From positions 1,350,501 through 1,414,500 of the forward strand of contig NZ_VISL01000001.1 in the NCBI RefSeq assembly GCF_007827465.1: 64,000 bases of DNA, written 5' to 3'. The notes under the pieces are model-generated. The model did no database searches. It was not told the origin of the DNA and saw only the letters and a list, made by a program, of their open reading frames with translations. Positions 1 to 55,983 of the stretch are shown one piece after another; the stretch's first letter is position 1, and each line of letters begins with the position of its first letter. The translations under genes were made by a program, and so were the position numbers. The DNA comes from Dokdonia sp. Hel_I_53 (GTDB lineage: Bacteria; Bacteroidota; Bacteroidia; Flavobacteriales; Flavobacteriaceae).

Positions 1-511
1 CCTTGATTTTGGAATAACCACCATAGCCTAACACAATCTCTTTCTGAGGTACAAACTGGGAAGCCATCAGTGCTAACCAATTCTTAGAGGCAGGAACACA
101 GTCTGCATCTATAAAAACTAAATGTTCATAAGTTGCTTTTTTAATTCCTAGTGTGAGTGCATATTTTTTATTTCCCCAAAACTTTTCATTGTAACGCACT
201 TGCAATTCTTTGACGCGAGCATCACTTAAAGCAAAGTCTTCTATAACTTCTCCTGTCTTATCTGTAGAAGCGTCGTTTATTAAGATAACTTCAAAGCAAG
301 GATACTCTTGTTCTAAAACTTTTGGAATGTTATTTTTTAGATTTCCTTCCTCATTTTTTGCGCAAACCAAAACTGAAATGGGAGGTGTGATTTTGTGTTT
401 TGATTTTTCCGCTTTCGCGAAAGCGAAACGACTATAAAAAAGATAAAAAGCCACATTAATAATTGTGGCTCCTAAAAAAATATAAAATAATAACGTGTTG
501 AGTTGTTCCAA
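1..511 (-). CDS. Family 2 glycosyltransferase, membrane-anchored (C-terminus cut by window edge)
   Basis: This is the N-terminal 170 residues of a GT-A fold glycosyltransferase; the rest lies beyond position 1. A membrane helix (about residues 7-27) is followed by the catalytic domain starting at PPISVLVCAKNEEGN, with the nucleotide-binding INDASTD motif and a DADC (DxD-type) metal-binding motif. An in-frame TAG at 518-520 lies just upstream and no ATG follows it before the domain, so TTG at 509-511 is the likely start. It begins 7 bases after the preceding gene's stop, suggesting co-transcription. Residues 30-34 (AFAKA) are encoded by a copy of the iterated palindrome, right after the membrane helix. 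The sugar donor and acceptor cannot be told. Confidence 0.85.
   Translation of the reverse strand, partial: MEQLNTLLFYIFLGATIINVAFYLFYSRFAFAKAEKSKHKITPPISVLVCAKNEEGNLKNNIPKVLEQEYPCFEVILINDASTDKTGEVIEDFALSDARVKELQVRYNEKFWGNKKYALTLGIKKATYEHLVFIDADCVPASKNWLALMASQFVPQKEIVLGYGGYSKIK
411..424. repeat. Iterated palindrome GCTTTCGCGAAAGC, copy 1
   Basis: Exact copy inside the glycosyltransferase gene, read as AFAKA just after its membrane helix. Confidence 0.95.
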
Positions 512-517
512 TAGATG

Positions 518-721
518 CTAGGCTTTTAGGTCCTGAGAACAATCTCCCATCTCTTCTGGCATCTTGCCGCACATACTACAAGCTTCTCCATCCTTATTTA
601 AAAATGGACTTTGACTAGCACAAGTACCTGCAAATTTACCGTCTTTTTTAGCCCAAATTTTAATAGCTATTCCTCCTACTGAAAGACCCAATAAAGCCAG
701 AGTAATAAATAATAATTCCAT
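518..721 (-). CDS. Small membrane protein with cysteine-rich tail
   Basis: Protein of 67 residues starting at MELLFITLALLGL. An ATG 33 bases further up is possible, but a TAnnTTTG promoter-like motif at 737-744 favours the inner start. One N-terminal membrane helix is followed by a polar tail with Cys at GTCASQ, ACSMCGKM and GDCSQD. The pattern resembles short Bacteroidota proteins usually annotated only as membrane or secreted protein. The CxxC could bind metal or form a disulfide, but no function is assigned. The glycosyltransferase starts 7 bases downstream. Confidence 0.6.
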   Translation of the reverse strand: MELLFITLALLGLSVGGIAIKIWAKKDGKFAGTCASQSPFLNKDGEACSMCGKMPEEMGDCSQDLKA

Positions 722-736
722 CTCAAAAATTTTAAA

Positions 737-744
737 CAAAGATA
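737..744 (-). promoter_or_regulatory. Bacteroidota -7 motif TATCTTTG
   Basis: TATCTTTG on the minus strand, 16 bases upstream of the ATG at 721. A TTTA near-match to the -33 TTTG element lies 19 bases further up (764-767). It probably drives the small membrane protein and the glycosyltransferase. Confidence 0.5.
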
Positions 745-768
745 CAAAAAGCACTGTCTATGCTAAAA

Positions 769-4570: not shown

Positions 4571-4582
4571 GCTTTCGCGAAA
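4571..4582. repeat. Partial iterated palindrome
   Basis: GCTTTCGCGAAA followed by CC instead of GC (12 of 14). It lies between the aminotransferase start and the DUF1573 terminator. Confidence 0.8.
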
Positions 4583-4596
4583 CCAAAATAATACAA

Positions 4597-5038: not shown

Positions 5039-5218
5039 AATTTCTAATATTTGAGGATAATCAAAAATAGGTAGAATAAGCCCAAGTGCCAAAAATTAAA
5101 TCATCATTAAATTACAACGCCCTCCATTGAACGTTGTAAAATAAGCACTAGGGAATATTTAAATATCCTACTGTTATCCCTACTTTTGCCTTCTTTAAGA
5201 CAACAATCAGACCAAACT

Positions 5219-7852
5219 ATGAGTATTGCTTCAAATTATGATGCTTCTTCTGTAGAAGACAAATGGTACAGCTACTGGATGGAACACAATTATTTTCACT
5301 CCACACCAGACGACAGAGAACCATATACAATAGTGATCCCTCCTCCTAATGTTACAGGTGTATTACACATGGGACATATGCTTAACAACACAATTCAAGA
5401 TGTGTTGATACGCCGTGCTCGCTTACTAGGCAAAAACGCTTGCTGGGTGCCTGGCACAGACCACGCCTCCATTGCTACAGAAGCTAAGGTAGTCGCACGA
5501 CTCAAAGAACAGGGGATTAACAAGTCTGATCTTACACGTGAAGAATTTCTAGCTCACGCATGGAAATGGAAAGAAGAATACGGAGGTGTTATTTTAGATC
5601 AGCTTAAAAAACTAGGAGCTTCATGTGATTGGGAGCGCACAGCGTTTACTATGGATCCAGCAATGTCTGAGTCCGTGATAAAAACCTTTGTAGATTTACA
5701 TAAAAAAGGTCTTATTTATAGGGGATACCGAATGGTAAATTGGGACCCTGAAGCAAAAACAACACTTTCTGATGAAGAGGTTATACATGAAGAGCGTCAA
5801 GGGCTTCTTTATTATTTAAATTATAAAATAGAAGGATCTAAGGATACGTTGACTATCGCGACAACACGTCCGGAAACAATTTTTGGAGATACTGCTATTT
5901 GTATAAATCCTAATGACGAAAGATTTACACATCTTAAAGGAAAAAAAGCGATTGTCCCAATCTGCGGTCGTATCATACCTATTATTGAAGATGAGTATGT
6001 TGATTTAGAGTTTGGAACAGGATGTCTTAAAGTTACGCCTGCTCACGACGAAAATGATAAAATGCTTGGTGACAAACATAACCTTGAAGTAATTGACATC
6101 TTTAACGATGACGCCTCTCTTAATAGCTTTGGGCTGCATTATGAAGGTCAAGATCGTTTTGAGTGCCGTAAAAATATAAAGAAAGAACTCGAAGCATTAG
6201 AAGCTCTTGTAAAAACAGAAAATCATATAAATAAAGTAGGAACTTCTGAGCGTACAAAAGCAGTTATTGAGCCAAAGCTCTCTGACCAATGGTTCTTAAA
6301 AATGAGTGAACTGGTAAAGCCTGCTATAAAAGCTGTATTAGAAACAGGTGATGTAAAGCTCTTTCCTAAAAAGTTTGAAAATACCTACCGTCACTGGATG
6401 GAAAACTGTCGTGACTGGAATATATCACGTCAATTGTGGTGGGGTCAGCAAATTCCAGCCTACTTTTACGGGGATGGGAAAGAAGATTTTGTTGTTGCAG
6501 AAAATATAGAAGATGCTGTTACGCTTTCGCGAAAGCGTACAGGAGATCAAAGTCTTACTGCAGGCCACCTAAAACAGGATGAAGATAGCTTAGATACTTG
6601 GTTTAGTTCATGGTTATGGCCTATGAGCGTTTTTGACGGGATACGTAATCCCAAAAATGAAGAATTTAATTATTACTACCCTACAAATGATCTTGTTACA
6701 GGTCCAGATATTTTATTTTTCTGGGTAGCGCGCATGATCGTCGCGGGGTACGAATACACTGGAAAACGACCTTTTGAAAACGTATATCTTACTGGATTAG
6801 TACGTGACAAACAACGTCGTAAAATGTCTAAATCTTTAGGAAACTCTCCTGATGCTCTTGAGCTTATAAAAGAATACGGAGCAGATGGCGTACGTGTAGG
6901 TCTATTACTCAGTAGTGCTGCAGGAAATGACCTTATGTTTGACGAAGATTTACTTAAACAAGGAAAAGGATTTATAAAGAAAAATCTAAGTGCTTTTAGC
7001 TTAATACAAGGCTGGGAAATTGACGAAAATATTGCACAACCAAATCATAGTGAACAAGGATTAGAATGGTATACAAATCGCTTTAATGAGACACTCATTG
7101 AAATAGAAGACCATTACTCTAAGTATCGTATCTCAGATGCACTTATGGCAAGCTACAAACTTGTTTGGAATGACTTCTGTGGATGGCTTCTAGAAATTAT
7201 CAAGCCTGCTTACAAGCAACCTATTGACCGTAAGACGTATGATGGAATAATTGCAGCGTTTGAAAACAACTTACGCATATTACATCCATTTATTCCATTT
7301 GCTTCTGAAGAGATCTGGCAGACTATTGCAAATCGCACACCAGAAGATGCTTTAATCATTAACAAATGGCCTATCTCTGGAGCAATAAATAAAGAAATTA
7401 TTTCTGATTTTGACTATGCGACACAGGTAATATCAGGAATACGCACCATCCGGAAAAGTAAAAATATTGCATTTAAGGATGAGATTGAATTACATATCCT
7501 CAAAAACGAAAACACATCCTCTGCGTACGACACCATTATCTCAAAATTAGGTAATGTAAGCAAAATTGCCTTTACGAATGATGTTTTAGAAAACGCATTA
7601 TCGTTCAGAGTAAAGTCAAATGAATATTTTATTCCACTCGCTGGAGCTATTGATGTGGAAGCTGAAATCTCTAAAATTGAAGAGGAATTGAAATACACAA
7701 AAGGATTCTTAAAATCTGTACGTGGAAAACTGTCTAATGAACGATTTGTAAATAATGCACCAGAAAAAGTAGTTGCCATCGAAAAGCAAAAAATGACAGA
7801 TGCAGAAGCAAAAATAGAAGCTTTAGAAAAAAGGCTAGCTAGTTTAGCTTAA
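5219..7852 (+). CDS. valS: Valyl-tRNA synthetase
   Basis: Class I aminoacyl-tRNA synthetase charging tRNA-Val, 877 residues, a normal bacterial length. The start at 5219 (MSIASNYDAS) is preferred over an ATG 33 bases upstream because the first family-like residues begin there. The ATP-binding HMGH motif is at residues 50-53 after PPPNVTGVL, and KMSKS at 535-539. The editing domain includes ATTRPETIFGDTAI, and a C-terminal coiled coil is present (EAEISKIEEELKYTKGFL...). An iterated palindrome copy encodes TLSRKR near residue 435, in a variable loop after the WWGQQIPAYFYGDG segment. Confidence 0.97.
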   Translation: MSIASNYDASSVEDKWYSYWMEHNYFHSTPDDREPYTIVIPPPNVTGVLHMGHMLNNTIQDVLIRRARLLGKNACWVPGTDHASIATEAKVVARLKEQGINKSDLTREEFLAHAWKWKEEYGGVILDQLKKLGASCDWERTAFTMDPAMSESVIKTFVDLHKKGLIYRGYRMVNWDPEAKTTLSDEEVIHEERQGLLYYLNYKIEGSKDTLTIATTRPETIFGDTAICINPNDERFTHLKGKKAIVPICGRIIPIIEDEYVDLEFGTGCLKVTPAHDENDKMLGDKHNLEVIDIFNDDASLNSFGLHYEGQDRFECRKNIKKELEALEALVKTENHINKVGTSERTKAVIEPKLSDQWFLKMSELVKPAIKAVLETGDVKLFPKKFENTYRHWMENCRDWNISRQLWWGQQIPAYFYGDGKEDFVVAENIEDAVTLSRKRTGDQSLTAGHLKQDEDSLDTWFSSWLWPMSVFDGIRNPKNEEFNYYYPTNDLVTGPDILFFWVARMIVAGYEYTGKRPFENVYLTGLVRDKQRRKMSKSLGNSPDALELIKEYGADGVRVGLLLSSAAGNDLMFDEDLLKQGKGFIKKNLSAFSLIQGWEIDENIAQPNHSEQGLEWYTNRFNETLIEIEDHYSKYRISDALMASYKLVWNDFCGWLLEIIKPAYKQPIDRKTYDGIIAAFENNLRILHPFIPFASEEIWQTIANRTPEDALIINKWPISGAINKEIISDFDYATQVISGIRTIRKSKNIAFKDEIELHILKNENTSSAYDTIISKLGNVSKIAFTNDVLENALSFRVKSNEYFIPLAGAIDVEAEISKIEEELKYTKGFLKSVRGKLSNERFVNNAPEKVVAIEKQKMTDAEAKIEALEKRLASLA
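6523..6536. repeat. Iterated palindrome GCTTTCGCGAAAGC, copy 2
   Basis: Exact copy in valS with symmetrical flanks extending the palindrome to 20 bp (6520-6539). It is read as LSRKR. Confidence 0.95.
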
Positions 7853-13572: not shown

Positions 13573-13586
13573 GCTTTCGCGAAAGC
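13573..13586. repeat. Iterated palindrome GCTTTCGCGAAAGC, copy 3
   Basis: Exact copy between birA and lipA, just upstream of the -33 position of the lipA promoter. Confidence 0.95.
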
Positions 13587-14521: not shown

Positions 14522-15523
14522 ATGAGCAAGATTAAAATTGCAATTAACGGTTTTGGCCGCATAGGACGCACTGTCTTTAGACTCATTGAAAATCATCCTC
14601 AACTTGAGGTGGTAGCCATTAATGATCTGGCAGACGCAAAAACTTTATCACATCTTCTTAAATACGATAGTATTCACGGAGTAAGCGCTAAGGAAATTAG
14701 CTTTCGCGAAAGCGTACTCATCGTCAACAAAAAAGAAATACCATTGTACAACTTTGAGGATATTGAGCTTATTCCATGGAAGAACTCGCAACCAGATATC
14801 GTTATTGAGAGCACTGGAAAGTTCAAAACAAAGAAAGAACTTGAAAAGCATATTGTAAGCGGGGCAAAAAAAGTGATTTTGAGCGTACCACCAGCAGACG
14901 AAGATATTCCTATGGTTGTTCTTGGAGTTAATAATGGCGATCTAGATGGTACAGAAACCATCATCTCAAACGCCTCTTGCACCACAAACAATGCAGCCCC
15001 TATGGTTCAAATCATAGACAAATTGTGTGGTATTGATCAAGCATATATTACCACAATACACTCCTACACCACAGACCAGACTCTTCACGATCAACCTCAT
15101 CGTGATTTACGTAGATCACGTGCAGCAAGCCAAAGCATTATTCCTACTACGACTGGAGCCGCAAAAGCACTTACTAAAATTTTTCCACACCTTGCTAGCG
15201 TTATTGGAGGCTGTGGCATTAGAGTCCCTGTACCCAATGGATCCCTTACAGACATAACTTTTAATGTAAAAAAAGATACCACCATAGAAGAGGTGAATAT
15301 GGCAATGAAGAAAGCTTCTCTAGGTAGGTATAAAGACATACTTGCTTTTACAGAAGATCCTATTGTATCTATTGATATTATAGGGAACCCTCACTCCTGT
15401 GTTTTTGATGCACAAATGACATCTGTAATAGGGAAAATGGTAAAAATCATAGGCTGGTATGATAATGAGATGGGATATTCTAGTAGAATAGTAGACTTAA
15501 TTTTACAGATCTCTACAAAATAA
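14522..15523 (+). CDS. gap: Type I glyceraldehyde-3-phosphate dehydrogenase
   Basis: Glycolytic NAD-dependent enzyme of 333 residues, the usual length. The NAD-binding INGFGRIGR and the catalytic cysteine in SNASCTTNN are present, followed by the catalytic His in TTIHSYT and the C-terminal WYDNEMGYSSR. A palindrome copy encodes SFRES at residues 60-64, in the variable segment of the NAD domain after YDSIHG. Co-directional with lipA, 6 bases downstream. Whether it is the main glycolytic copy or a second paralogue cannot be told here. Confidence 0.95.
   Translation: MSKIKIAINGFGRIGRTVFRLIENHPQLEVVAINDLADAKTLSHLLKYDSIHGVSAKEISFRESVLIVNKKEIPLYNFEDIELIPWKNSQPDIVIESTGKFKTKKELEKHIVSGAKKVILSVPPADEDIPMVVLGVNNGDLDGTETIISNASCTTNNAAPMVQIIDKLCGIDQAYITTIHSYTTDQTLHDQPHRDLRRSRAASQSIIPTTTGAAKALTKIFPHLASVIGGCGIRVPVPNGSLTDITFNVKKDTTIEEVNMAMKKASLGRYKDILAFTEDPIVSIDIIGNPHSCVFDAQMTSVIGKMVKIIGWYDNEMGYSSRIVDLILQISTK
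14700..14713. repeat. Iterated palindrome GCTTTCGCGAAAGC, copy 4
   Basis: Exact copy inside gap, read in a third frame as SFRES. Confidence 0.95.
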
Positions 15524-19005: not shown

Positions 19006-20100
19006 ATGAAAGTACATCAAGTTTCAGTTTTATTAAACGATTGGGCACCACTTGCCTATGCAGAAGACTTTGACAATGTGGGATTGCTCGTGGGGAATAC
19101 TCATCAAAAGGTCAGTAATATATTAGTATCACATGATGCCTTAGAAAATGTAGTGGACGAGGCTATACGTAAGGATTGTAATCTTATAGTATGTTTTCAC
19201 CCTATCATATTTTCTGGACTAAAAAGATTAGTGGGGCAAAATTACGTGCAGCGATCGGTGCAAAAAGCAATAAAAAATGATATCGCGATCTATGCAGTAC
19301 ACACCGGGTTAGATAATATGAGTAAAGGGGTAAATTTTGCAATGTGCAACGCACTAGATATTGATTTTCCAAAAATTTTAATCCCTAAGAAAAACCACAT
19401 TCTAAAATTAACTACCTATATACCTCATACCCATACGGAACAACTTCTTTCAGCTCTTTTTGACGCTGGAGCAGGAAGTATAGGTAATTACGATGAATGT
19501 AGTTTTACTACAAAAGGTAATGGAACATACCGTGGAAACGAGCTTTCCAATCCTGTCTTAGGCGAAAAAGGGAAACGCCACACAGAACCCGAAACCCAAA
19601 TAAGCATCAGTTTTGAAAAGCATTTACAATCTAAAATTTTAAACACACTCATCGCGACACATCCTTACGAAGAGGTTGCATATGAAGTTACGACGCTTCA
19701 AAATGCCTTGCAGACAGTTGGCATGGGGATGATAGGAGATTTAAAAGATAAAATGTCTGAAAAAGCTTTTCTCGCTTTCGCGAAAGCTAAATTTAAAACA
19801 GGCAACATCCGTCACTCACAATTAACAGGTAACTCCATACAAAAAGTTGCCGTTTTAGGAGGTAGTGGTGCTTTTGCTATTGAAGCTGCTATCTCACAGG
19901 GCGCTGACGCTCTTATTACAGCAGATTTGAAATATCACGATTTCTATAAAGCAGAAAATAAGATCATTTTGCTAGATGTAGGTCATTATGAAAGTGAACG
20001 TTTTACTAAAAACTTAATAGCCGGTTATCTTACAGAAAAAATTAGTACTTTTGCAATCATTTTATCAGAGGAAAATACCAATCCTATCAACTATTTTTAA
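19006..20100 (+). CDS. Nif3-like dinuclear metal center protein
   Basis: NIF3/YbgI/YqfO family protein of 364 residues, the long form with a PII-like domain inserted in the middle (about 125-235). The metal-binding signature is visible at NVGLLVG, CFHPIIF, AVHTGLDN, and near the C-terminus ALITADLKYHDFYKAE and DVGHYESER. The family is widely conserved; its substrate is unsettled. A palindrome copy encodes AFAKA at residues 257-261, after the inserted domain. Three bases separate it from the next gene, so they form an operon. Confidence 0.9.
   Translation: MKVHQVSVLLNDWAPLAYAEDFDNVGLLVGNTHQKVSNILVSHDALENVVDEAIRKDCNLIVCFHPIIFSGLKRLVGQNYVQRSVQKAIKNDIAIYAVHTGLDNMSKGVNFAMCNALDIDFPKILIPKKNHILKLTTYIPHTHTEQLLSALFDAGAGSIGNYDECSFTTKGNGTYRGNELSNPVLGEKGKRHTEPETQISISFEKHLQSKILNTLIATHPYEEVAYEVTTLQNALQTVGMGMIGDLKDKMSEKAFLAFAKAKFKTGNIRHSQLTGNSIQKVAVLGGSGAFAIEAAISQGADALITADLKYHDFYKAENKIILLDVGHYESERFTKNLIAGYLTEKISTFAIILSEENTNPINYF
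19774..19787. repeat. Iterated palindrome GCTTTCGCGAAAGC, copy 5
   Basis: Exact copy inside the Nif3-like gene, read as AFAKA. Confidence 0.95.
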
Positions 20101-23218: not shown

Positions 23219-23240
23219 TTCCGCTTTCGCGAAAGCGGAA
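23219..23240. repeat. Iterated palindrome copy 6, extended to 22 bp
   Basis: The GCTTTCGCGAAAGC core at 23223-23236 has fully symmetrical flanks (TTCC / GGAA), the longest perfect palindrome of the set. It lies between the kdsA promoter motif and its start codon and could form a hairpin in the leader RNA. Confidence 0.95.
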
Positions 23241-26334: not shown

Positions 26335-26348
26335 GCTTTCGCGAAAGC
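26335..26348. repeat. Iterated palindrome GCTTTCGCGAAAGC, copy 7
   Basis: Exact copy in the 34-base gap between two converging genes, 9 bases after the upstream stop codon. Confidence 0.95.
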
Positions 26349-29842: not shown

Positions 29843-29856
29843 GCTTTCGCGAAAGC
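29843..29856. repeat. Iterated palindrome GCTTTCGCGAAAGC, copy 8
   Basis: Exact copy in the long intergenic region, about 150 bases upstream of the stress protein gene. Confidence 0.95.
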
Positions 29857-31448: not shown

Positions 31449-31462
31449 AATTTCGCGAAAGC
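31449..31462. repeat. Partial iterated palindrome
   Basis: TTTCGCGAAAGC with the first two bases changed (12 of 14), between tRNA-Ser and the asparaginase stop. Confidence 0.75.
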
Positions 31463-32559: not shown

Positions 32560-33677
32560 ATATTCTCTGCTTGAATTACAGGATTTGCATACATTAATAA
32601 GAAACTCTCTACTTCATTTTTATTTTCAATATTAACACGCACTTCAAGTCTACGCTCAAAATGACGTAGTTCTTTCTCATCGTACTCATTTCTGTATTTA
32701 TCACTTTTATGATAGATGTCATAGGCAATGTAATTAGTAGGCCATAACTTGTAATTTTCCCAAATCACTTTATCTAGTGCAGTCGCAAATGCCTGTAATT
32801 GATCATTATCACTTGCCCGGCTATTTTCAATATCTTCATAGACTCTATCTGGAATTGATGTAGCTGCAATGTGAATATTACGTTTATTCCCCAAAGCTCC
32901 TTTTAGGATACTATTAAAATCCTCATTTTCAGTCTTTATATAGGGATGATTTTCTTGTTTTGCGATTAATTCAGGTACTTTTAAGATGTCTGTAGGGTCA
33001 TACTCATAGGAAATAGCGACTGGAATAATATTCAACTCTTTTAGGTATTGCATTAATGGCATTTTACCTCTAGCCATTGTTATCATCTTAAGAACGCCTT
33101 GCTGTGTTTTATCAAGGCCGTCCTTTGTTCTACCTTCGCGTTGTGCGACCCAAACAGATCTTTCTGAGACTAATAAATGTTTAATATATTGAGATAAAAG
33201 CCTAGAACTCATTAATAACTCCCTAGGTGATTGATCACGCAATACTAAAAAATTCCTATTAAGGCGGGACAACTCCATTAAGAAATCTCTTTGAACTAAA
33301 TTATCGCCTATAGCAGACGCCGTTGTAATGAGATTATTATCTATAAGAGTCATATTGAGTAGTGAAGTATCCAACACTATGTCTCTGTGGTTTGAAAGGT
33401 AAAGGTAAGATCGCTCTTGCGAAAGCGTATCAAAACCACTACTGGTAAACTCCTCGGCACTTTTCTCTAACAGATTAGCAACTGATTTGTAAATCACCTT
33501 TTCTTGAAAATCTGCAATGGAGTGACACGTTTTGAGTATTTCTATAATTTCCTCAGCACTTTTATCTGGAAAAGTAAATTGCAATAACACCTTAAACATA
33601 GGGTGTCTTGCCGCTCGCAAGAGGGCTTCGTTAACTTCCGTATCATAATACGGTCTTATGTGGTCATATGTATCCAA
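32556..33677 (-). CDS. Acyltransferase (PlsC-like)
   Basis: 373 residues. The acyltransferase motif I is SNHRDIVLDTSLL (HxxxxD type) near residue 113; VWVAQREGRTKDGLDKTQQG resembles motif III and IIPVAISYEYDP motif IV. Probably a 1-acylglycerol-3-phosphate acyltransferase or glycerophosphate acyltransferase relative, making or remodelling phospholipids. Near copy of the palindrome at 33412-33427 has two mismatches. It shares a 4-base overlap with the asparaginase gene. Confidence 0.82.
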   Translation of the reverse strand: MDTYDHIRPYYDTEVNEALLRAARHPMFKVLLQFTFPDKSAEEIIEILKTCHSIADFQEKVIYKSVANLLEKSAEEFTSSGFDTLSQERSYLYLSNHRDIVLDTSLLNMTLIDNNLITTASAIGDNLVQRDFLMELSRLNRNFLVLRDQSPRELLMSSRLLSQYIKHLLVSERSVWVAQREGRTKDGLDKTQQGVLKMITMARGKMPLMQYLKELNIIPVAISYEYDPTDILKVPELIAKQENHPYIKTENEDFNSILKGALGNKRNIHIAATSIPDRVYEDIENSRASDNDQLQAFATALDKVIWENYKLWPTNYIAYDIYHKSDKYRNEYDEKELRHFERRLEVRVNIENKNEVESFLLMYANPVIQAENI

Positions 33678-35868: not shown

Positions 35869-36274
35869 AGATTATTGCCGTATTAGACTTTTTCCTACAG
35901 TCACAAATCATTTAGAGATGAAGGCAAAAATAAATGGTGTTGAAGGTTCCTTTATTTTAGATACTGGTGCTTCTAGTTCTTGTATTGATTTTAGTTATGC
36001 AGAGAAATTTAATCTGCGTTCTGAAGATAGTGAAGTCCTTGCTGCTGGAGCTGGAGCTACAGATATGATCACTAAGCTTTCGCGAAAAAATAGTATCCAA
36101 ATACAAAAATGGAAATATCATAGACTAGACATTGTCCTCTTTGATCTCACACATGTAAATACAGCCCTAGAAAATCATAATGTAGCACAGGTACATGGTA
36201 TCTTAGGAGCAGACTTACTTAATCAAGGTAAAGGTATTATTGATTATCAATACAACTGCTTGTATCTTAAATAA
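35837..36274 (+). CDS. Retropepsin-like aspartic protease (clan AA)
   Basis: 145 residues, one retropepsin-fold unit. The active-site motif is FILDTGASSSCIDFSYA, and VHGILGADLLNQGKGIIDY is the matching flap/C-terminal pattern. Such proteins act as homodimers. The start inside the CHAT gene suggests coupled translation and a joint function in regulated proteolysis. KLSRKN at residues 80-85 derives from a partial palindrome copy. Confidence 0.85.
   Translation: MPSLREFLLSKDYCRIRLFPTVTNHLEMKAKINGVEGSFILDTGASSSCIDFSYAEKFNLRSEDSEVLAAGAGATDMITKLSRKNSIQIQKWKYHRLDIVLFDLTHVNTALENHNVAQVHGILGADLLNQGKGIIDYQYNCLYLK
36076..36089. repeat. Partial iterated palindrome
   Basis: GCTTTCGCGAAA followed by AA (12 of 14), inside the retropepsin-like gene. 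Confidence 0.8.
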
Positions 36275-37862: not shown

Positions 37863-39386
37863 ATGGCCATTCTAGGTACCCTTATAAAAAGCGCAATTGA
37901 CTTAAAGGACTCACTCACAAGTGATGCAAATCCTATTGAAGAGCAACAAAATGTTCTAAAAAATCTTCTTGATACCGCAAAAGATACCGCATTCGGTAAG
38001 TATTACGGATTTACTCAACTACTAGAAGAAGAGGATTTGAATTCCGCTTTCGCGAAAGCGATTCCCTATCACGACTATACTCAAATGAATGAAAAATGGT
38101 GGGAACGTATTAAAGAGGGAGTAGAGGATATTACATGGCCAGGAAAACCAAATTACTTTGCGTTAAGCAGTGGTACAACTGGTAAGAAAAGTAAAAGAAT
38201 ACCAGTAACAGATGATATGGTTGCAGCTATTAGAAGTACGAGCCTTGCACAAGTATCTGCACTAGCTCATTATGACCTACCAGCAGACTTTTTTGACAAA
38301 GAGGTAATGGCGCTAGGAAGCTCTACAGATCTAAGTGAGCACGATGAGTTTCTAGAAGGTGAGATAAGTGGTATTACAGCAAGTAACATTCCCTTTTGGT
38401 TTAAGGGCTTTTACAAACCTGGAGAAGATATCGCAAAAATTGACAACTGGGATGAACGGGTAAAAACAATAGCAGAGCGTGCAAAAACTTGGGATATAGG
38501 AGCTTTAAGTGGCATTCCTTCATGGATGGAGCTTATGCTTAAGGAAGTAATAGCATACCACAAAGTTGATACTATACATGATATCTGGCCCAATCTTGAA
38601 GTATTTACAAGTGGAGGTGTAGCATTTCAACCTTATGAAAAGAGTTTTAGACAATTACTTAATCGTGACATCACGATTATAGATACTTACCTAGCTTCAG
38701 AAGGTTTCATGGCGTACCAAAGCAGACCAGAAACAACTGCAATGAAACTTTCTACAGATGCAGGTATTTATTTTGAGTTTGTACCTTTTAAGCCAGAATA
38801 CATTAACGATGATGGGTCATTATCTCAAGATGCTCCTGCATTATCACTTAAGGATGTAAAAAAAGACGTTGATTATGTACTTATTATAAGTACAGTCTCT
38901 GGAACCTGGAGATATCTCATAGGTGATACGATTGCTTTTACTGATGTAGACCGCGCTGAAATTAAAATAACTGGACGTACAAAATTCTTTTTAAATGTTG
39001 TTGGGTCACAACTCTCTGTAAATAAAATGGAGGATGCCTTGAGAGATTTAGAAAAATCATTTGATATTGAGATTCCTGAATTCACACTAAGTGCAAAAAA
39101 GATTGATGGAGAATTTTATCACTGCTGGTATCTAGGAACGACTACTTCTGTAAGTGAAAATGAACTTGCAGAGGCTTTAGACAAGTCTTTGAAAGAAGCA
39201 AATAAAAATTATGGCGTGGCTAGAGGGAAATCTTTAAAAGGTGTCAAAGTAACAGTTATCAATCCTGAGGTATTTCACGAATGGAGCGGGGCCAATAAGA
39301 AAAAAGGAGGGCAAGTTAAAATGGAGAAAGTCATGGGAGAAGAAAAATTTGCCGAATTCGAAGATTTTGTAAAAAAGCAATTATAA
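37863..39386 (+). CDS. GH3 auxin-responsive promoter family protein
   Basis: 507 residues of the ANL adenylate-forming superfamily. The ATP-binding motif is YFALSSGTTGKKSKRIPVT, followed by VFTSGGVAFQPYEKSF, IDTYLASEGFMAYQ and WRYLIGDTIAFTDVDRAEIKITGRTKFFLNVVG. Plant GH3 enzymes join amino acids to acyl acids; bacterial homologues are uncharacterised acyl-adenylating or amidating enzymes. A palindrome copy encodes AFAKA at residues 62-66. Confidence 0.9.
   Translation: MAILGTLIKSAIDLKDSLTSDANPIEEQQNVLKNLLDTAKDTAFGKYYGFTQLLEEEDLNSAFAKAIPYHDYTQMNEKWWERIKEGVEDITWPGKPNYFALSSGTTGKKSKRIPVTDDMVAAIRSTSLAQVSALAHYDLPADFFDKEVMALGSSTDLSEHDEFLEGEISGITASNIPFWFKGFYKPGEDIAKIDNWDERVKTIAERAKTWDIGALSGIPSWMELMLKEVIAYHKVDTIHDIWPNLEVFTSGGVAFQPYEKSFRQLLNRDITIIDTYLASEGFMAYQSRPETTAMKLSTDAGIYFEFVPFKPEYINDDGSLSQDAPALSLKDVKKDVDYVLIISTVSGTWRYLIGDTIAFTDVDRAEIKITGRTKFFLNVVGSQLSVNKMEDALRDLEKSFDIEIPEFTLSAKKIDGEFYHCWYLGTTTSVSENELAEALDKSLKEANKNYGVARGKSLKGVKVTVINPEVFHEWSGANKKKGGQVKMEKVMGEEKFAEFEDFVKKQL
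38046..38059. repeat. Iterated palindrome GCTTTCGCGAAAGC, copy 9
   Basis: Exact copy in the GH3-family gene, read as AFAKA. Confidence 0.95.
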
Positions 39387-40159: not shown

Positions 40160-40882
40160 ATGAAAAAAATGTTGATTTTGGAACTGATATGCTGTTTAGC
40201 TTTCGCGAAAGCGGTTACCGCTCAACAACCAAACTCTGTTTCTCAAATAACAGGCCAAGAGTTACTAAACAAAGTTATTGCTTTTCATGACCCAGCAAAT
40301 AAATGGCCTTCCTTTAAAGGAACTTTTACAATTCTCTTAGAAAGCCCAAAGATGCAACCACGAAAAAGCACCGTAACTCTTAATTTACCAGAGGAGTATT
40401 TTAAGCTTGTTGAAAATAGAAATGGTAAGATTTCTACAAAAGAAGTTTCTGAAGAATGTTGTATTCTCTCTGATAAAGATATGCCTCCCACTAAAACAGC
40501 TCTAGATGATGATGTTTGTAAGCGAGCGCTTATGCTCAAAAATTATTATACTTACCTCTATGGACTTCCTATGAAACTAAGAGATCCAGGCACCATAATA
40601 AATCCTATAGTGTTGATTAAAAATTTTAAAGGAAAAGAATACCTTACTCTCCGTGTAACTTATAACGAGGAAGTAGGCAGTGATAACTGGGAGTTTTATT
40701 TTAATCCAAAAACTTACGCTATGGAGGCTTATCGTTTTTTTAAAGGGGATGATAGATCTACTGGAGAATACATACTTTTGACAGGATTAAAGGTTATTAA
40801 CGGAATTAAAATGCCAGAAAATCGAGCTTGGTATTACAATAAAGATAACGGCTACCTTGGAACAGATAAACTCATTCATTAA
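40160..40882 (+). CDS. Exported DUF6503-like protein
   Basis: 240 residues. The signal peptide MKKMLILELICCLAFAKAVTAQQ contains AFAKA (residues 14-18) encoded by a palindrome copy; its A-K-A can serve as a signal peptidase site, or cleavage may fall after TA. The mature protein has a LolA/outer-membrane lipoprotein-sorting style beta pattern (YLTLRVTYNEEVGSDNWEFYFNPKTYAMEAYRFFKGD). The family name is from memory of similar flavobacterial proteins; role unknown. Confidence 0.7.
   Translation: MKKMLILELICCLAFAKAVTAQQPNSVSQITGQELLNKVIAFHDPANKWPSFKGTFTILLESPKMQPRKSTVTLNLPEEYFKLVENRNGKISTKEVSEECCILSDKDMPPTKTALDDDVCKRALMLKNYYTYLYGLPMKLRDPGTIINPIVLIKNFKGKEYLTLRVTYNEEVGSDNWEFYFNPKTYAMEAYRFFKGDDRSTGEYILLTGLKVINGIKMPENRAWYYNKDNGYLGTDKLIH
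40199..40212. repeat. Iterated palindrome GCTTTCGCGAAAGC, copy 10
   Basis: Exact copy in the signal peptide region of the exported protein gene, read as AFAKA. Confidence 0.95.
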
Positions 40883-44086: not shown

Positions 44087-44620
44087 TTAAAGTAATTTAC
44101 TATATAGATCCCAAACCACCACACCACAGGAAACAGAAATATTAAGTGAATGCTTGGTCCCAACTTGTGGGATTTCTATCACTGCATTTGACAAAGACAC
44201 GATCTCTTGTTGAACTCCTTTCACTTCATTCCCAAACACTACTGCATATTTTTTATGTGAAGATGGCTCAAACTCGTTAAGCATGATTGCATCCTCTGCT
44301 TGCTCCACAGCACAGATTTGAACCCCTTCATTTTGTAACTTTCGCGTAAGCGTAACCACATCTTCTACATACTCCCAAGAAACGGAATCTGTAGCTCCTA
44401 AGGCGGTTTTTTGAATATCCCGATGCGGTGGAGAGGCTGTAATACCACAGAGATAGATTTTTTCAATAAGAAAAGCATCTGCTGTACGAAAAACAGAGCC
44501 CACATTATTGAGACTTCTTATATTATCTAAAATAATGATAATAGGAGTTTTTACAGCTTCCTTAAAATCTGTAATAGATTTACGAGTGAGCTCGCTATTT
44601 TTCAGCTTTCGGTTATTCAT
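44087..44620 (-). CDS. SPOUT-family RNA methyltransferase (TrmH/SpoU)
   Basis: 177 residues. The three SPOUT motifs are visible: NVGSVFRTADAF, YAVVFGNEVKGV and IPQVGTKHSLNISVSCGVVVWDL. It should be a 2'-O-ribose methyltransferase acting on tRNA or rRNA; without an N-terminal substrate domain the target is open. Co-directional with era, 27 bases downstream. A near copy of the palindrome (12 of 14) is at 44338-44351. Confidence 0.9.
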   Translation of the reverse strand: MNNRKLKNSELTRKSITDFKEAVKTPIIIILDNIRSLNNVGSVFRTADAFLIEKIYLCGITASPPHRDIQKTALGATDSVSWEYVEDVVTLTRKLQNEGVQICAVEQAEDAIMLNEFEPSSHKKYAVVFGNEVKGVQQEIVSLSNAVIEIPQVGTKHSLNISVSCGVVVWDLYSKLL

Positions 44621-45634: not shown

Positions 45635-45654
45635 TACGCTTTCGCGAAAGCGTA
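45635..45654. repeat. Iterated palindrome copy 11, extended to 20 bp
   Basis: The core at 45638-45651 with symmetrical TAC/GTA flanks. It ends 3 bases before the stop codon of the next minus-strand gene. Confidence 0.95.
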
Positions 45655-46562: not shown

Positions 46563-48011
46563 CTACCCAGCCACCTTCATCCTATCACTAACACGCTTCC
46601 AAAGAATATCTGCAGCAACAGAAGTATTTTTTAAGCTATCTAACATTTCATTTACATTAATGTGCTCAAATAATTGAGGATCATCTTGTGACCTCAAATC
46701 TCCACCTCCTGATACGGTAGCGAGATGCCAACCTTCAAATGTGCGTCCTACAGTAAAACCTTTCCATATAATTTCGACATTTGTATGACGATCATCAGAT
46801 TTTATGCTATTGTACAACTCCAATACGTCTTTTTTAGAGCCTTCTATCATTTGAAAAAAAGTAGCTTCATGATGTACTAAACACCCAGAAATATTATGTC
46901 GCATATTATTACTTCTAGAATTAGACACCATTTTATCAATATCGCTTTGTGTTAAAGATTTTTTTGCCTTTGACCTGTAACTGAGTTCAAATATTACTTC
47001 TTTATCACATACCTTTTTTCTAAAATCACTAGGCAGTAAGCCGTAAACCTCCTTATATTTTTTTGAAAAATAACTTCTGCTTGACAATCCTATTGAGTAC
47101 ACAATCTCAGAGATTGTATTATTTGTATTGAGTAAAAGTTCCCGAGCTCGCTCCATTTTTAAGCGAATAATTAGACTGTTTACTGTTTCTCCAAAAATAT
47201 GTTGCACCCCACTCTGAAGTTTTGCTGGTCCCATAGCTGCAGTACGAGAGAGTTCTTTTACAGACAGTTTGCTCCCTATATTTGATTTAATATAATCTCC
47301 TAAATCAATTATTTTACGTAACTCATCATCGCGTAAACCATGTGTTGTATTAGTATTAGCATCAGACTTTTGGTAAGAATCTATCTGTTCTGAGATAGTT
47401 TTAAGCACTGCACTTTCTGCCAATAGCCTACCTATAACATCTGTTCTGGTGTTTTTTACTAACAATGTTGTGTGCTCTGCAATCCTAGGAGAGATTTCTC
47501 CAAAATACTGAAAAGCGGTATCCTGCCCATCTACTTCAAAAAGTTCAAATACATCTTTCCATAATCCTTCTCTACTATGATACACGTCCTCAGTCATATT
47601 TTCTTTCATCGCTAGGATGGCAGTCATAGATATTTGAACATTTGCAGGTAGAATAATTGTGTTTTGCTCATCTGTAGCACTTGACAGAATTACATTCTGT
47701 AAATGACCAATTTTATTTACCTTATCTGTATTTTCAAATTTGTGATAGAAATAACCTTCTATACAATAAAGAAAATATAAAGGATTCATTTGGCTTTCAT
47801 CCTTTGTAAAAATAAATTCCTCTGATAACTTGATGTTATAGGTCCTTACCACAAGACCTGAGAAGATGACATGGTTTGTAATCACGCCCTTACCGTTATC
47901 ATTATCCAGCACAAGCTTAGATGCCCCAAGACTCTCACTGAAATCTGCCTCTAGAAATACAGCGAGCTTGCGAAGTTGGTCTGCAGGGGTTAACTCACTA
48001 ATGTTTAACAT
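46563..48011 (-). CDS. AraC-family transcription regulator fused to a C-terminal BLUF blue-light sensor domain
   Basis: 482 residues. Residues 1-220 form an AraC-type N-terminal part without clear sequence matches. Residues about 228-333 are the AraC DNA-binding domain with two helix-turn-helices (LSVKELSRTAAMGPAKLQSGVQ; TISEIVYSIGLSSRSYFSKKYKEVYGLLPSDFR). Residues about 338-432 are a BLUF flavin domain: Tyr345 in ELSYRSKA, Asn368/369 in SRSNN, Gln387 in TFFQMIEG, DDRH and RTFEGW428HL. The Tyr, Asn and Gln of the BLUF photocycle are all present; the semi-conserved Met after the Trp is Leu430. Predicted light-dependent regulator; targets unknown. Confidence 0.88.
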   Translation of the reverse strand: MLNISELTPADQLRKLAVFLEADFSESLGASKLVLDNDNGKGVITNHVIFSGLVVRTYNIKLSEEFIFTKDESQMNPLYFLYCIEGYFYHKFENTDKVNKIGHLQNVILSSATDEQNTIILPANVQISMTAILAMKENMTEDVYHSREGLWKDVFELFEVDGQDTAFQYFGEISPRIAEHTTLLVKNTRTDVIGRLLAESAVLKTISEQIDSYQKSDANTNTTHGLRDDELRKIIDLGDYIKSNIGSKLSVKELSRTAAMGPAKLQSGVQHIFGETVNSLIIRLKMERARELLLNTNNTISEIVYSIGLSSRSYFSKKYKEVYGLLPSDFRKKVCDKEVIFELSYRSKAKKSLTQSDIDKMVSNSRSNNMRHNISGCLVHHEATFFQMIEGSKKDVLELYNSIKSDDRHTNVEIIWKGFTVGRTFEGWHLATVSGGGDLRSQDDPQLFEHINVNEMLDSLKNTSVAADILWKRVSDRMKVAG

Positions 48012-49255: not shown

Positions 49256-49269
49256 GCTTTCGCGAAAGC
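49256..49269. repeat. Iterated palindrome GCTTTCGCGAAAGC, copy 12
   Basis: Exact copy between the CPXCG gene and the TolC-like gene, 6 bases from the TolC stop. Confidence 0.95.
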
Positions 49270-49275: not shown

Positions 49276-50643
49276 CTAAAAATCGACGTTAAGTAACTGT
49301 CCCGTCAACTGCAACAGTGTAAGTTCAGCTAGCTTAGCTGTGTATTTTGCAGCGTTCTTACTCGTTTGAGTATTGAGCAAATTAAGCTGCGCCTGCCGAA
49401 ATTCTATACTTGTGATCTGTCCAAGTTTTAATCTTTCCTGTGAACGTTCAAAATTTGCAATACTAGTTGCTACGTTATCTTCTTGAAGATGGTAGATCGC
49501 TAGTGCATTAATATAATTTCCGCGAGCATTTGCAATATCTCTTTTTACAGATTGTTCTAGCTGCGCCTTTAAAATTTCTTGACTATCTAGAGCTATTTTT
49601 GCATTTTTTAGTCCTACAATAGAGCGCCCTCCGTCAAAAAGATTCCACCGTAAACTAGCTCCTGCCACTAATGAAGTAGATGTTCTTGTTGTGCTAGGAA
49701 AAAATGCAGAGGCAGGATTATTTGCTAGATTCCATCCATAGCTTCCAGTAAGACCTATGGTAGGTAAAAACAGACCTTTTGCTTTTTTTATCTCATAATC
49801 ATTAATGAGTATGTCTTGTTCAATTTGCAACAAACTCACGTTGTTTAAAGTGGCATTTTCAAGATAGCTATCCATAAGAAGAGGGCTTACAAATGTAACA
49901 GTAGTATCTGCCGTTTTTAAATCTTGTATATCACTGGCCAAGACGACATTTAAATCTCGTTGTGCGTTACGCAGTTGTTGAGATGCATTTAATAAATTAA
50001 TACTATCCGTTACAATATCCACCTGAGCATTGAGTATTTGAAGTCTATTTACCTGTCCATAGTCAAATTGATACTGAGCACGAGTTTCTCGCTGTTTTGA
50101 GATTTCTAAAGCCGACTCTAGTACTGATATATTTTCTTCAATTCTAGCAACTTCATAGTATACAGAAAAAAGTTGAAGCATTACATTTTCTATAGTTTCT
50201 CTCGCTTCTAACTGAGATAAATTATATCGTTCTTTGAGTTGCTTGTAATTGTAAAATCTTCCCAAGCCGTCAAATAATGTATAACTGGCATTTATGGATG
50301 CATCATAACGAGTTGTCTCTGCATCGTCAATGATTATATCAGGACGGGGATTGCCCTGTTGATCTAATGCACCTCCAAAATCATTAGTACTACTTGTTCT
50401 ATCAAAGTTTGCGCCTGCAAGTCCAAAAACTGTAGGCAAATAATTTGAATTGAGAATACTCGTATTATTTTCAGCAATGGCGACTTGGTTTGTCGCTAGT
50501 AGAACCCCAAAGTTGTTCTCTAGCATTTGTTGTACAGCATCCTCTTTGGATAATAATTGTGCCGTTTGCTGTGGGTACGCTTTCGCGAAAGCAAAAAAAC
50601 AAATAATACATCCAATATGTTTAACTAATCTTGATGGAATCAT
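49276..50643 (-). CDS. TolC-family outer membrane efflux channel
   Basis: 455 residues. Two outer-membrane-efflux repeats of long helices with barrel strands are visible (LQLFSVYYEVARIEENISVLESALEIS; LFLPTIGLTGSYGWNLANNP). The signal peptide ends in AFAKAYPQQ, where AFAKA (residues 18-22) comes from a palindrome copy and A-K-A is a plausible cleavage site. Last gene of the RND operon, overlapping the previous one by 4 bases. Confidence 0.93.
   Translation of the reverse strand: MIPSRLVKHIGCIICFFAFAKAYPQQTAQLLSKEDAVQQMLENNFGVLLATNQVAIAENNTSILNSNYLPTVFGLAGANFDRTSSTNDFGGALDQQGNPRPDIIIDDAETTRYDASINASYTLFDGLGRFYNYKQLKERYNLSQLEARETIENVMLQLFSVYYEVARIEENISVLESALEISKQRETRAQYQFDYGQVNRLQILNAQVDIVTDSINLLNASQQLRNAQRDLNVVLASDIQDLKTADTTVTFVSPLLMDSYLENATLNNVSLLQIEQDILINDYEIKKAKGLFLPTIGLTGSYGWNLANNPASAFFPSTTRTSTSLVAGASLRWNLFDGGRSIVGLKNAKIALDSQEILKAQLEQSVKRDIANARGNYINALAIYHLQEDNVATSIANFERSQERLKLGQITSIEFRQAQLNLLNTQTSKNAAKYTAKLAELTLLQLTGQLLNVDF
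50579..50592. repeat. Iterated palindrome GCTTTCGCGAAAGC, copy 13
   Basis: Exact copy in the signal peptide region of the TolC-like gene, read as AFAKA. Confidence 0.95.
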
Positions 50644-54300: not shown

Positions 54301-54553
54301 AAGTAGATACGACACGTTCTACACCATCTAATCCTTTTAAATTATCCTCAATTTTAAGTACGATCCCTTCTTCTATCTCTTGAGGAGATGCTCCAGGGTA
54401 AACGACACTTATATTAATATTTTTTGAATCTACTAGCGGAAAAAAAGAAGATTTAAGTGATAAAGCTCCTACAATACCAAAAACAAAAAACATCAATACG
54501 ATCACATTTACTGCGACGTGATATTTTATAAAATACTCTATAATTTTGCGCAT
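51305..54553 (-). CDS. RND efflux transporter permease (AcrB/CusA type)
   Basis: 1082 residues, twelve membrane helices in two halves with large periplasmic loops. Recognisable: the N-terminal helix RKIIEYFIKYHVAVNV, porter motifs, GIIVLVDDG-type ILVDDGIVIAENIYQHYERGKTPIQAA with the proton-relay Asp pair, and the second-half GIMVNDGLVLI. Drives proton-coupled export of hydrophobic compounds or metals; the substrate is not readable. Confidence 0.93.
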   Translation of the reverse strand: MRKIIEYFIKYHVAVNVIVLMFFVFGIVGALSLKSSFFPLVDSKNINISVVYPGASPQEIEEGIVLKIEDNLKGLDGVERVVSTSRENSGNINVEIEKGKDIDFMLLEIKNAVDRVPSFPSGMEPLVVAKQEAIRQTISFAISGDNVELATLKQIGRQVENDLRGIDGISQINVSGYPAEEIEIAVNENSLLAYNLTFAEVSQAVSRSNILTTGGTIKTDAEEYLIRANNRSYYGDELSNVVVRSDANGRTIRLKDVAQVRDRFSETPNANYYNGNLAVNVTITSTNTEDLIGAAEATKEYIENFNQKYNNVQLAVVNDLSITLVQRTKLLTENAIVGMLLVLIFLSVFLNTRLAFWVAFGLPVAFLGMFMLAGYFNVTINVLSLFGMIIVIGILVDDGIVIAENIYQHYERGKTPIQAAVDGTMEVLPPILSAITTTILAFGIFLFLDGRIGEFFGEVSVIVMLTLLVSLVEALIILPAHLAHSKALRTESNAPKKGIAKIFSKLRYINEFGDRIMQWLRDNVYSPVLRFALDYKFLMFSFFIVFVILTLGSFQAGIIRGAFFPQIASDNVRVTLNMPNGTNEKVTDSIISFIEDKANEVNQELTSEYLNGTNTELFENLIKTVGPGGSQASLSLNLLPGEERPNEITSALVTNRLRKKVGQVVGVESLVYGSGGNFGGSPVSVSLLGNNIAELKAVKEELKEYLESNPEIKDVTDNDPAGIKEIRLELNESAYALGLNLQSVMAQVRSGFFGTQAQRFQRGQDEIRVWVRYDKENRTSITDLDEMRIATPSGAKVPLNEIATYTIDRGDVAINHLEGRREIQISADLENPKEVSATDVMAELQNNVMPEILSKYPTVTPSYEGQNREAGKLTGSLKPVGLTVLLLIYIVIAFTFRSYSQPLMLLLLIPLSLPAVAWGHWIHDFPVNILSMLGIIALIGIMVNDGLVLIGKFNSNLREGMTFDEAIFDAGRSRFRAIFLTSITTIAGLAPLIFEESRQAQFLIPMAISIAYGIGFATILTLVMLPIFLSFSNWMKTTTEKLIVGRKVPRESSERAVKEMEEEAANEEGQQVAYNSNTEIAS

Positions 54554-54554
54554 A

Positions 54555-55691
54555 CTACTCTGCTTGTGTTTGGGTATCCTTTCCTTCTTGATACATCTTA
54601 ACTAGCATACCAGCATAAGCGCCAGGAACTGGTTTACTAACAATACGCGTTCCATCAGGAACTCCTTTTACAACTACTTCTTTTTCGGAAAAATATACAG
54701 GTTGCACATTTATCATTTCTAGTATAGAATCCCGCACGGTAAAAAGTTGATTTTCTGGCTGTAGTAAGCCTCTAGGTATTGATATAGCGTCTGCCTCTTC
54801 TTTTGCCTCTAATACAGCTTCGAGATATACTCCCTCTTTTAAATCTGACCCCTTCACCTCTATGTATGCATTTATAGTTTGCGAAGCTTGATCTATATTT
54901 CCATTGACACGACTTACTTTACCTATGTATTCTCGCTCCCCATTAATAGTTGTAAGCATCACTTGGCTCCCAATTTTCAATAAATCTGCGTAAGATTTGC
55001 TAATGGCCACCTCAAGTTCATACACACTTGTATCGATAAACTCTCCTAATTTTTGTCCTGGACGAACAAGGGTTCCTTCTGTAACTAGTGTTTCTGTCAA
55101 TATTCCAGAAAATGGAGCAGCAATTCTATACTTGCTTAATCGTTGTTCGAGGTTTTTTACATTGTAATAGGATGTAAGTATATTACGGCCTGAGATAAAA
55201 TACTTTTCCTTTTCTGATGTCATTTCTGGAAGCTCAGGTGTGTTCTTATTTACATCAAATGTATTGAGGTAGGCATTCCACTTTTGAAAAGAATCTGGGT
55301 AATCTAAACGCAGGTCTGGCATAATCGCTGTAATCTGATCATATAGTGCACTTTTCTGAGCTTTAACTTGGGCGTAATATTCTGCGCTATTTAGGCTTAA
55401 TAACGTTTCTCCTTTACGATAGGTTTGTCCTGGTTTAAACAATTTACTACCTCGTTGTAAAACACCTTGAACTTCTGAGAAAAGCTCTAGTCTACGTTGA
55501 GAAACAAGATTTCCATTAGCAGAAATATTAATAGGAACAATTCCATTGTTTACGGTATCTACGAAAACAGTTTTAATAACTTTCTTAGGCTTAGGACGTT
55601 CTTTTTGATTGCTGGCAATTATGGCCTGTGATGCAAAATAGGCTCCTATAATTAATATGAGTCCTACAACTGAAAGTATAACTTTACGCAT
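54555..55691 (-). CDS. RND efflux periplasmic adaptor subunit
   Basis: 378 residues. A signal anchor helix (KVILSVVGLILIIGAYFAS) is followed by lipoyl-type and hairpin segments (LFSEVQGVLQRGSKLFKPGQTYRKGETLLSL; FSGILTETLVTEGTLVRPGQKLGEF) and a beta-barrel region. Bridges the RND pump and TolC. First gene of the four-gene operon; one base separates it from the permease gene. Confidence 0.92.
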   Translation of the reverse strand: MRKVILSVVGLILIIGAYFASQAIIASNQKERPKPKKVIKTVFVDTVNNGIVPINISANGNLVSQRRLELFSEVQGVLQRGSKLFKPGQTYRKGETLLSLNSAEYYAQVKAQKSALYDQITAIMPDLRLDYPDSFQKWNAYLNTFDVNKNTPELPEMTSEKEKYFISGRNILTSYYNVKNLEQRLSKYRIAAPFSGILTETLVTEGTLVRPGQKLGEFIDTSVYELEVAISKSYADLLKIGSQVMLTTINGEREYIGKVSRVNGNIDQASQTINAYIEVKGSDLKEGVYLEAVLEAKEEADAISIPRGLLQPENQLFTVRDSILEMINVQPVYFSEKEVVVKGVPDGTRIVSKPVPGAYAGMLVKMYQEGKDTQTQAE

Positions 55692-55967
55692 TTAGAGTAG
55701 TTTAAATATATATCCTTAGAGACAAGCAGTCAAAGGATTGGAATTTACAAAGCTACCTATGTAAAACAGTCGCAGTTGTTAAGAAGTTCTTAAATAAAAT
55801 GTTATAAAAGTTATTATTACAAGGTATTAAGTTATAAGCATGAGAGGGTAATAACTAAGTTACCTTTCCATGTATACCCTAGTACTTCTATATTAAAAAA
55901 AACTGATCGATATACCGAGGAGCACTCTTTATGTAGAACCTCTTTGAGTTAGGGAATTTGCAGAAAT
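55692..55967. other. Leader region of the RND operon
   Basis: About 275 bases between the adaptor start and the palindrome next to the ABC-F stop. Minus-strand TAGCTTTG (55748-55755) fits TAnnTTTG, but no good -33 element is seen. No reading frame or RNA gene is evident. Confidence 0.4.
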
Positions 55968-55969
55968 AC

Positions 55970-55983
55970 GCTTTCGCGAAAGC
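55970..55983. repeat. Iterated palindrome GCTTTCGCGAAAGC, copy 14
   Basis: Exact copy with symmetrical AC/GT flanks (18 bp), ending 6 bases before the stop codon of the ABC-F gene. It is the last exact copy in the window. Confidence 0.95.

Follow-up and report, generated by a model that had tools for sequence, protein, structure and literature searches.

The window analysed here is a stretch of 64,000 nucleotides from Dokdonia sp. Hel_I_53 (contig NZ_VISL01000001.1, positions 1,350,501 to 1,414,500 of the forward strand) and it carries a 14-bp palindrome, GCTTTCGCGAAAGC, in 14 exact copies. All of them are present where the initial annotation had placed them from the sequence alone, and none was found in any of 100 dinucleotide-preserving shuffles of the window. 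When up to three mismatches were allowed, 23 sites were obtained, with a mean of 1.99 and a maximum of 7 in the shuffles.

Seven exact copies are located between genes, as the initial annotation had stated and as our own reading of the open reading frames (ORFs) confirms. The copy at 13573..13586 lies between genes that we take to be birA-like and lipA-like, the one at 26335..26348 between two convergent genes and the one at 29843..29856 between divergent genes. The copy at 23223..23236, which is symmetric over 26 bp, is found just ahead of the likely true start of the gene 23209-24078 (+) and counts as intergenic only if this gene starts at a downstream ATG. The last three closely follow stop codons on the minus strand: 45638..45651, symmetric over 20 bp, begins 6 nt past the stop of the gene 45658-46155 (-), 49256..49269 is likewise 6 nt past the stop of the gene 49276-50643 (-), and 55970..55983, symmetric over 18 bp, is 8 nt past the stop of the gene 55992-57905 (-). 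Among the coding copies, 411..424 belongs to a minus-strand ORF that runs past the start of the window and reads AFAKAEKSK at this point. The copy at 6523..6536, symmetric over 20 bp, is part of the gene 5186-7852 (+), presumably valS encoding valyl-tRNA synthetase (ValS), and 14700..14713 is part of the gene 14522-15523 (+), which we assume to be a gapA-like gene for a glyceraldehyde-3-phosphate dehydrogenase. Two more are located within the genes 19006-20100 (+) (19774..19787) and 37863-39386 (+) (38046..38059), and the copies at 40199..40212 and 50579..50592 encode AFAKA in N-terminal signal-peptide-like regions of the genes 40160-40882 (+) and 49276-50643 (-), respectively.

The inexact copies had been described correctly in part. 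Three sites were given as matching at 12 of 14 positions, which is true for 31449..31462 and 36076..36089, while 4571..4584 has only one mismatch (13/14). Both two-mismatch sites are one-sided, the former keeping the core TTTCGCGAAA with the left GC lost and the latter having lost the right GC. Two copies called degenerate do exist, 44338..44351 with two mismatches and 58981..58994 with three, the latter taken alone being within chance expectation; two-mismatch sites at 24313 and 33413..33426 (GCTCTTGCGAAAGC) were missing from that list. The symmetry of some copies is indeed extended, at first given as 18 to 22 bp for those copies, and across the exact copies it ranges from 14 to 26 bp.

Copy number and architecture of the element

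In the whole genome of strain Hel_I_53 (one contig, 2.93 Mb) GCTTTCGCGAAAGC occurs 700 times, and the reversed pattern used as control does not occur at all; with up to two mismatches the numbers are 917 and 18, respectively. The count is thus not near chance, and the palindrome is neither confined to the window nor missing in relatives, as each of the 17 Dokdonia congeners searched holds 369–905 copies. Within the Flavobacteriaceae (299 genomes including our own) five genomes from the genera g1, g11 and g210 hold 408–857 copies and the other 294 hold 0–19; genomes with hundreds of copies are called carriers here. We infer that g1 corresponds to Dokdonia and g11 to Nonlabens. In a sample of 395 genomes from the phylum none apart from our own exceeded six copies. 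These counts bear out the initial annotation in its view of a genome-wide, lineage-specific and highly iterated palindrome; the likeness to HIP1 that it had proposed did not hold up, as sequence, length and internal methylase sites all differ. A ValS tree, covering 30 of the 32 genomes searched (G281 and G039 yielded no locus), unites Dokdonia and g210 in a supported clade (99/98), from which the single Nonlabens row is separated by a long branch of its own. Two changes of the carrier label are required on this tree and one change in 1% of the bootstrap trees, and the starred branches by themselves are compatible with a single carrier origin. The exact 14-mer string occurs in none of the 5.39 million papers of the PMC library, a scope outside of which subscription papers and preprints fall, and among the matches listed there no title or abstract start refers to a repeated palindrome for Dokdonia or Nonlabens.

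Alignment of the copies gave a 20-bp palindromic consensus, TACGCTTTCGCGAAAGCGTA, centred on the 14-mer, and on either flank of the 14-mer a stretch of ~18 bp is poor in G when read on the outward strand, which holds for intergenic as well as for coding copies. The element is a dyad-symmetric site of ~50 bp in which a 20-bp palindrome is set inside G-poor arms, an architecture that had been overlooked at first. For the copies of strain Hel_I_53 the frequency of G on the outward strand is 0.05–0.09 at positions +4 to +18, 0.14 at +19–24 and 0.15–0.18 further out, and in the pooled copy set the single positions from +4 to +18 show values of 0.04–0.16. The G-poor arms are clear in intergenic copies. 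In coding copies the depletion overlays the codon rhythm, with +4–18 being below +19–30 in 17 of 18 comparisons by frame, side and phase; in a smaller coding sample one bin (frame 0, right, +10–18) was at background with a G frequency of 0.18. A Nonlabens set of 66 copies, taken from g11 stretches and from records with Nonlabens or Flavobacteria bacterium BBFL7 in the title, has 0.044 and 0.069 G in the two arms, 114 copies from the Dokdonia genome G016 have 0.050 and 0.075, and 13 copies from g210 have 0.135 and 0.175, compared with 0.28–0.30 further out. On each strand the left arms are rich in G and T, and the 3' arms are rich in A and C and lack a T-tract. Beyond position 3 the flanks agree in composition only, and the arms are not cruciform stems because the complementarity between left and right beyond this position was no higher than in shuffled pairs (242 copies). 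A weak preference for A at every third base (+4, +7, +10 and +13; 0.49 vs 0.37–0.40) was also observed in intergenic arms.

In 498 kb of sequence from strain Hel_I_53, which includes two stretches overlapping by 7.6 kb, all 134 occurrences of TTTCGCGAAA adjoin a GC, at both ends in 112 cases and at a single end in 22, and TTTCGCGAAA was not found in 323 kb of non-carrier loci, some of which were partly masked. The genome contains 89 one-sided forms in which A or T adjoins the core, and the control 1. The idea that one-sided copies are half-modules keeping a single arm had to be dropped, because in a set of 69 one-sided copies both arms remain poor in G (0.098 and 0.114). At position +2 the lineages show different dialects, with T (0.59) in G016, whereas the Nonlabens set has G (0.39) or A (0.33). 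A palindrome scan of non-carrier loci (20 fetched, 19 scanned, 16 with usable sequence) revealed none of at least 12 bp recurring three times and yielded only 8-mers and the A/T 10-mers AATTATAATT and AAAATATTTT, this being a weak test as the 20-kb carrier stretch L349 was negative as well.

Placement of copies within and outside the carriers

The copies are over-dispersed, with an exclusion zone of ~1 kb and rarely more than a single copy within a kilobase. For the first 100 copies listed from our own genome (G000) only 2 of 99 gaps are shorter than 1 kb, compared with 20.0 expected under uniform placement. Similar values were found for G016, with 2 of 66 gaps in a first sample (16.3 expected) and 2 of 112 over 400 kb (28.4 expected); when the split between coding and intergenic copies was kept in the latter, 32.7 such gaps were expected, the minimum in 1000 simulations being 20. 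Nineteen of 20 sampled 20-kb stretches from strain Hel_I_53 hold 2–8 copies, and together with three stretches from the window they show a mean of 4.8 and a variance of 2.7. The remaining stretch is free of copies and resembles an island with helicase-like genes. From 112 copies of the strain 55 lie between ORFs, where 13.2 would be expected by ORF coverage, and 57 inside ORFs. The distance from a stop codon to the element is 6–12 nt in 20 of 56 cases. Coding copies translate as AFAKA, FRES or LSRK, and some of the AFAKA copies are located near N-termini in signal-peptide-like sequence.

To follow individual copies we compared ~20 kb of conserved synteny with 15 Dokdonia genomes, the aligned pieces being 64–79% identical. 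The valS copy at 6523 is exact in 13 of the 15 relatives; of the other two, G002 lacks sequence at this site and G015 has a different one. The gapA-like copy at 14700 is exact in seven and replaced by a gapless different sequence in six; in G009 the sequence differs and its alignment contains a one-base gap, and G012 has no sequence. At 19774 three relatives are exact, ten have a different sequence (one of them with a one-base alignment gap) and two have no sequence. The one-mismatch copy at 4571 corresponds to an exact one in five relatives, and the site 7568, exact in 12 of them, lacks a copy in the window. At the three sites and at 7568 no indel of the size of the element distinguishes relatives with a copy from those without, and thus copies in coding sequence come and go by substitution. 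This result covers coding sites, as the intergenic ones aligned poorly; the interval around 13573 holds a copy in eight relatives, at the aligned site in two and shifted in six.

Outside the carriers copies are often clustered. G116 has all of its 16 copies on one contig, G326 (19 copies) and G091 (17 copies) have theirs on three contigs each, and the density within clusters is close to that in carriers. Scattered cases are G184 (nine copies on six contigs) and G082 (six on four). Clusters bearing the palindrome occur in many genera of the Flavobacteriaceae, and those fetched hold genes which, by their type of sequence, are presumably for metal efflux. Seven genera show a pair of copies spaced by exactly 933 bp, which lies within one 405-aa gene where it was read. 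In 48 non-carrier copies the base at +2 is mostly G (0.43), which is similar to Nonlabens and unlike the T of Dokdonia. This dialect points to a Nonlabens-like donor, and the islands probably derive from a carrier lineage. Clusters were seen at L262, L263, L265, L266, L269 and L272–L274 as well as in G116 (C3), G326 (C4/C5) and G091 (C6/C98). Two Flavobacterium species have an intergenic copy downstream of the same dehydrogenase-like gene (L048:3030 and L096:84), and in the genus g147 eight of 23 genomes show 1–4 scattered copies, which is above chance.

The element was also found in viral loci. Among the matches listed, 43 of 133 copies are in loci with less than 42% G+C, and among these same matches G-poor arms (no more than 2 avoided bases out of 30) were present in 19 of the 43 low-G+C copies and in 2 of the 90 others, at a background of ~7%. 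Two of these viral contig loci with G-poor arms, both picked for matching the element, were read: L227 has genes for portal and head proteins, and in L176 there are genes for an integrase and a tape-measure protein. Further copies with G-poor arms are located in L223, L248, L251 and L254, and L193 has three copies with arms that are not clearly G-poor.

Candidate functions of the element

We regard a genome-wide palindromic self-DNA tag, most likely an uptake signal for natural transformation in flavobacteria, as the leading reading and assign it a probability of roughly 45%. A dimeric receptor at the surface or in the outer membrane would bind the palindrome in either orientation, DNA bearing the tag would be preferentially taken up and then recombined into the chromosome, and alleles matching the tag would spread through this bias. 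Such a mechanism would explain the strict core, the gain by point substitution where the sequence tolerates it and the usual limit of one copy per kilobase, and also the tag in chromosome-resident DNA such as prophages. Of the functions that the initial annotation had listed (a dimeric protein, chromosome organisation, DNA uptake or methylation), we lean towards uptake or another self mark because of the ~1-kb exclusion, the strict core with its low-information flanks, the gain by substitution, the copies in some phage contigs and an uptake-type locus; core and flanks, exclusion, substitution, dialects and phage copies together are best fitted by an uptake-driven self tag.

Short self-DNA words with a proven role in uptake exist in Neisseriaceae and Pasteurellaceae, and a methylated site in Campylobacter. 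The Dokdonia element resembles the DNA uptake sequence (DUS) of Neisseria and the uptake signal sequence (USS) of Pasteurellaceae in its hundreds to thousands of near-identical copies, in their presence in coding and intergenic sequence with an intergenic excess, in even spacing, in lineage dialects and in accumulation by point substitution (in part following passages of PMC1939737). Karlin et al. reportedly found a significantly even spacing for known uptake signals (passages of PMC1939737). In contrast to these signals, which the same passages give as non-palindromic, the element is perfectly palindromic, is flanked by a pair of symmetric skewed arms and belongs to Bacteroidota.

The genome of strain Hel_I_53 has adjacent genes for a CarboxypepD_reg barrel and a DUF5689 protein, like the transformation locus of Riemerella. 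Transformation of Riemerella anatipestifer needs ComEC, DprA, ComF, RecA, the outer-membrane CarboxypepD_reg protein, its DUF5689 neighbour and others, and the passages of PMC8459023 describing these genes name no uptake tag. Riemerella columbina, given as a member of the same family, preferentially takes up its own DNA (passages of PMC7965970). Two Exo_endo_phos_3 nuclease genes flank the barrel/DUF5689 operon (L428:4866-11378, G000:C1 ~1704865-1711377) and are possibly part of DNA processing during uptake; in the non-carrier locus L434 a gene with likeness in sequence to Exo_endo_phos_3 also adjoins this operon. DUF5689 is present in 9 of 9 carriers and ComEC in 22 of 22 genomes.

Several observations weigh against an uptake tag. 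DUF5689 also occurs in tag-free genera, namely in 24 of 27 non-carriers, and ComEC in 13 of 13. The carriers are not grouped in the DUF5689 tree (32 rows), which requires three changes with two of them forced by starred branches, nor in the barrel tree (10 rows), where from three changes only one is forced and two rows have long branches. Among the proteins tried in these two trees no receptor co-varies with the tag, and because neither tree groups the carriers we do not assign the specificity factor to DUF5689 or to the barrel. The top k-mers published for Riemerella (7–10 bp, three per length) are A-rich words and no such tag (Table 3 of PMC7965970). According to passages of PMC1939737, known uptake signals are not palindromes and their spacing is less even than would be expected for a compaction signal, so that a dimer organising the chromosome explains the even spacing and the dyad symmetry no worse than an uptake tag does.

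A binding site for such a dimer, that is a nucleoid-associated or segregation protein of the Noc, MatP or SlmA kind with many more sites, remains a serious rival, even though we consider it rather unlikely. The protein would bind about every 4 kb and need a spacing above 1 kb, for example for loops. Sites of Noc/ParB, MatP and SlmA are palindromic, 12–16 bp long, bound by dimeric proteins and spread over the chromosome. The perfect dyad symmetry with symmetric arms, the over-dispersed spacing, the counts per 20 kb with an island as the only empty stretch and the coding sites kept at aligned positions all agree with this explanation. However, by the numbers familiar to us for those systems the Dokdonia element has about ten times more sites, and G-poor-arm copies are present in some phage contigs (in loci picked for matching). 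Moreover, the arms constrain the composition of one strand over ~18 bp and do not form a half-site sequence. A Noc paralogue was rejected, since ParB_N gave one match in each of nine carriers, and no co-varying DNA-binding protein was found with ParB_N as the sole DNA-binding family tried.

Quite improbable is a methylation of the HIP1 type, where an orphan methyltransferase would act on TCGCGA or CGCG and the mark would drive the excess of copies via repair or conversion. Both sites are contained in the core, and the many copies of the palindrome lie in coding as well as in intergenic sequence. With HIP1 of cyanobacteria, which to our knowledge is still unexplained, the element has in common that it is highly iterated, palindromic and limited to particular lineages. 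Against this the constraint reaches ~25 bp from the dyad and thus far past a methylase site, and TCGCGA is not enriched outside the core, with 26 occurrences outside and 128 inside TTTCGCGAAA in 464 kb (~32 expected from dinucleotides). HIP1 is GCGATCGC and comes with GATC and CGATCG methylases (passages of PMC4390886), neither site being present in the Dokdonia core, and the Dokdonia element is another sequence of 20 and not 8 bp with a long flank constraint. We give the same low credence to a Chi-type recombination or anti-degradation signal, bidirectional by virtue of the palindrome, through which DNA bearing the tag, including that of phages, would be spared or recombined. One copy per ~4 kb (700 in 2.93 Mb) is close to the density of Chi in E. 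coli, and the G-poor-arm copies in some phage contigs as well as the G/T-rich left arms on each strand would be in line with such a role. Known Chi sites, however, are short (5–8 nt), asymmetric, oriented octamer-like sequences acting on RecBCD/AddAB, whereas the element spans 20 bp plus arms, and an exclusion below 1 kb is unexpected for a signal that works better when dense.

Direct tests disfavour terminators and inserted repeats, as they do the Noc paralogue. Bidirectional transcription terminators would account for the strong intergenic excess and the short distances to stop codons, but they are very improbable given the 57 of 112 copies inside ORFs, with the conserved valS site among the coding ones, the 3' arms without a T-tract and the same arm trend in coding copies. 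Least probable of all is the genome-wide insertion of a mobile repeat of palindromic type (REP, REPIN or MITE-like), which would fit the high copy number and the presence in islands of other genera, but not the alignment of coding copies to element-free sequence in relatives without an element-sized gap or flanks that are alike in composition only.

Within our preferred reading of a self-DNA tag for uptake, it is conceivable though doubtful that the element is the first DNA self-recognition tag from Bacteroidota. It would then be a ~50-bp two-armed palindrome that is read both ways by a non-pilus barrel-type uptake machine and shared by hosts, some phages and genera ungrouped in the ValS tree (Dokdonia with one more, and Nonlabens), its flank dialects recording the donor of the islands. 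In these common marine Flavobacteriia an independent word of palindromic form, for which arms, spacing and dialects have been measured, allows a direct test of what drives the copy number of such words. The element is also a ready assay substrate for the unusual uptake machinery of flavobacteria and can mark DNA transferred to other genera.

Other features of the window

Three further loci of the window are noted here for the proteins that they encode. In the single protein encoded by 46563-48011 (-) a BLUF blue-light sensor domain is joined to an AraC-type helix-turn-helix, and the ribosomal protein L21 encoded by 41932-42591 (-) bears a C-terminal helix-hairpin-helix extension. A CHAT-domain protein is encoded by 34876-35868 (+), and near it 36517-37683 (+) encodes an astacin-like protease with a CBM_5_12 module.

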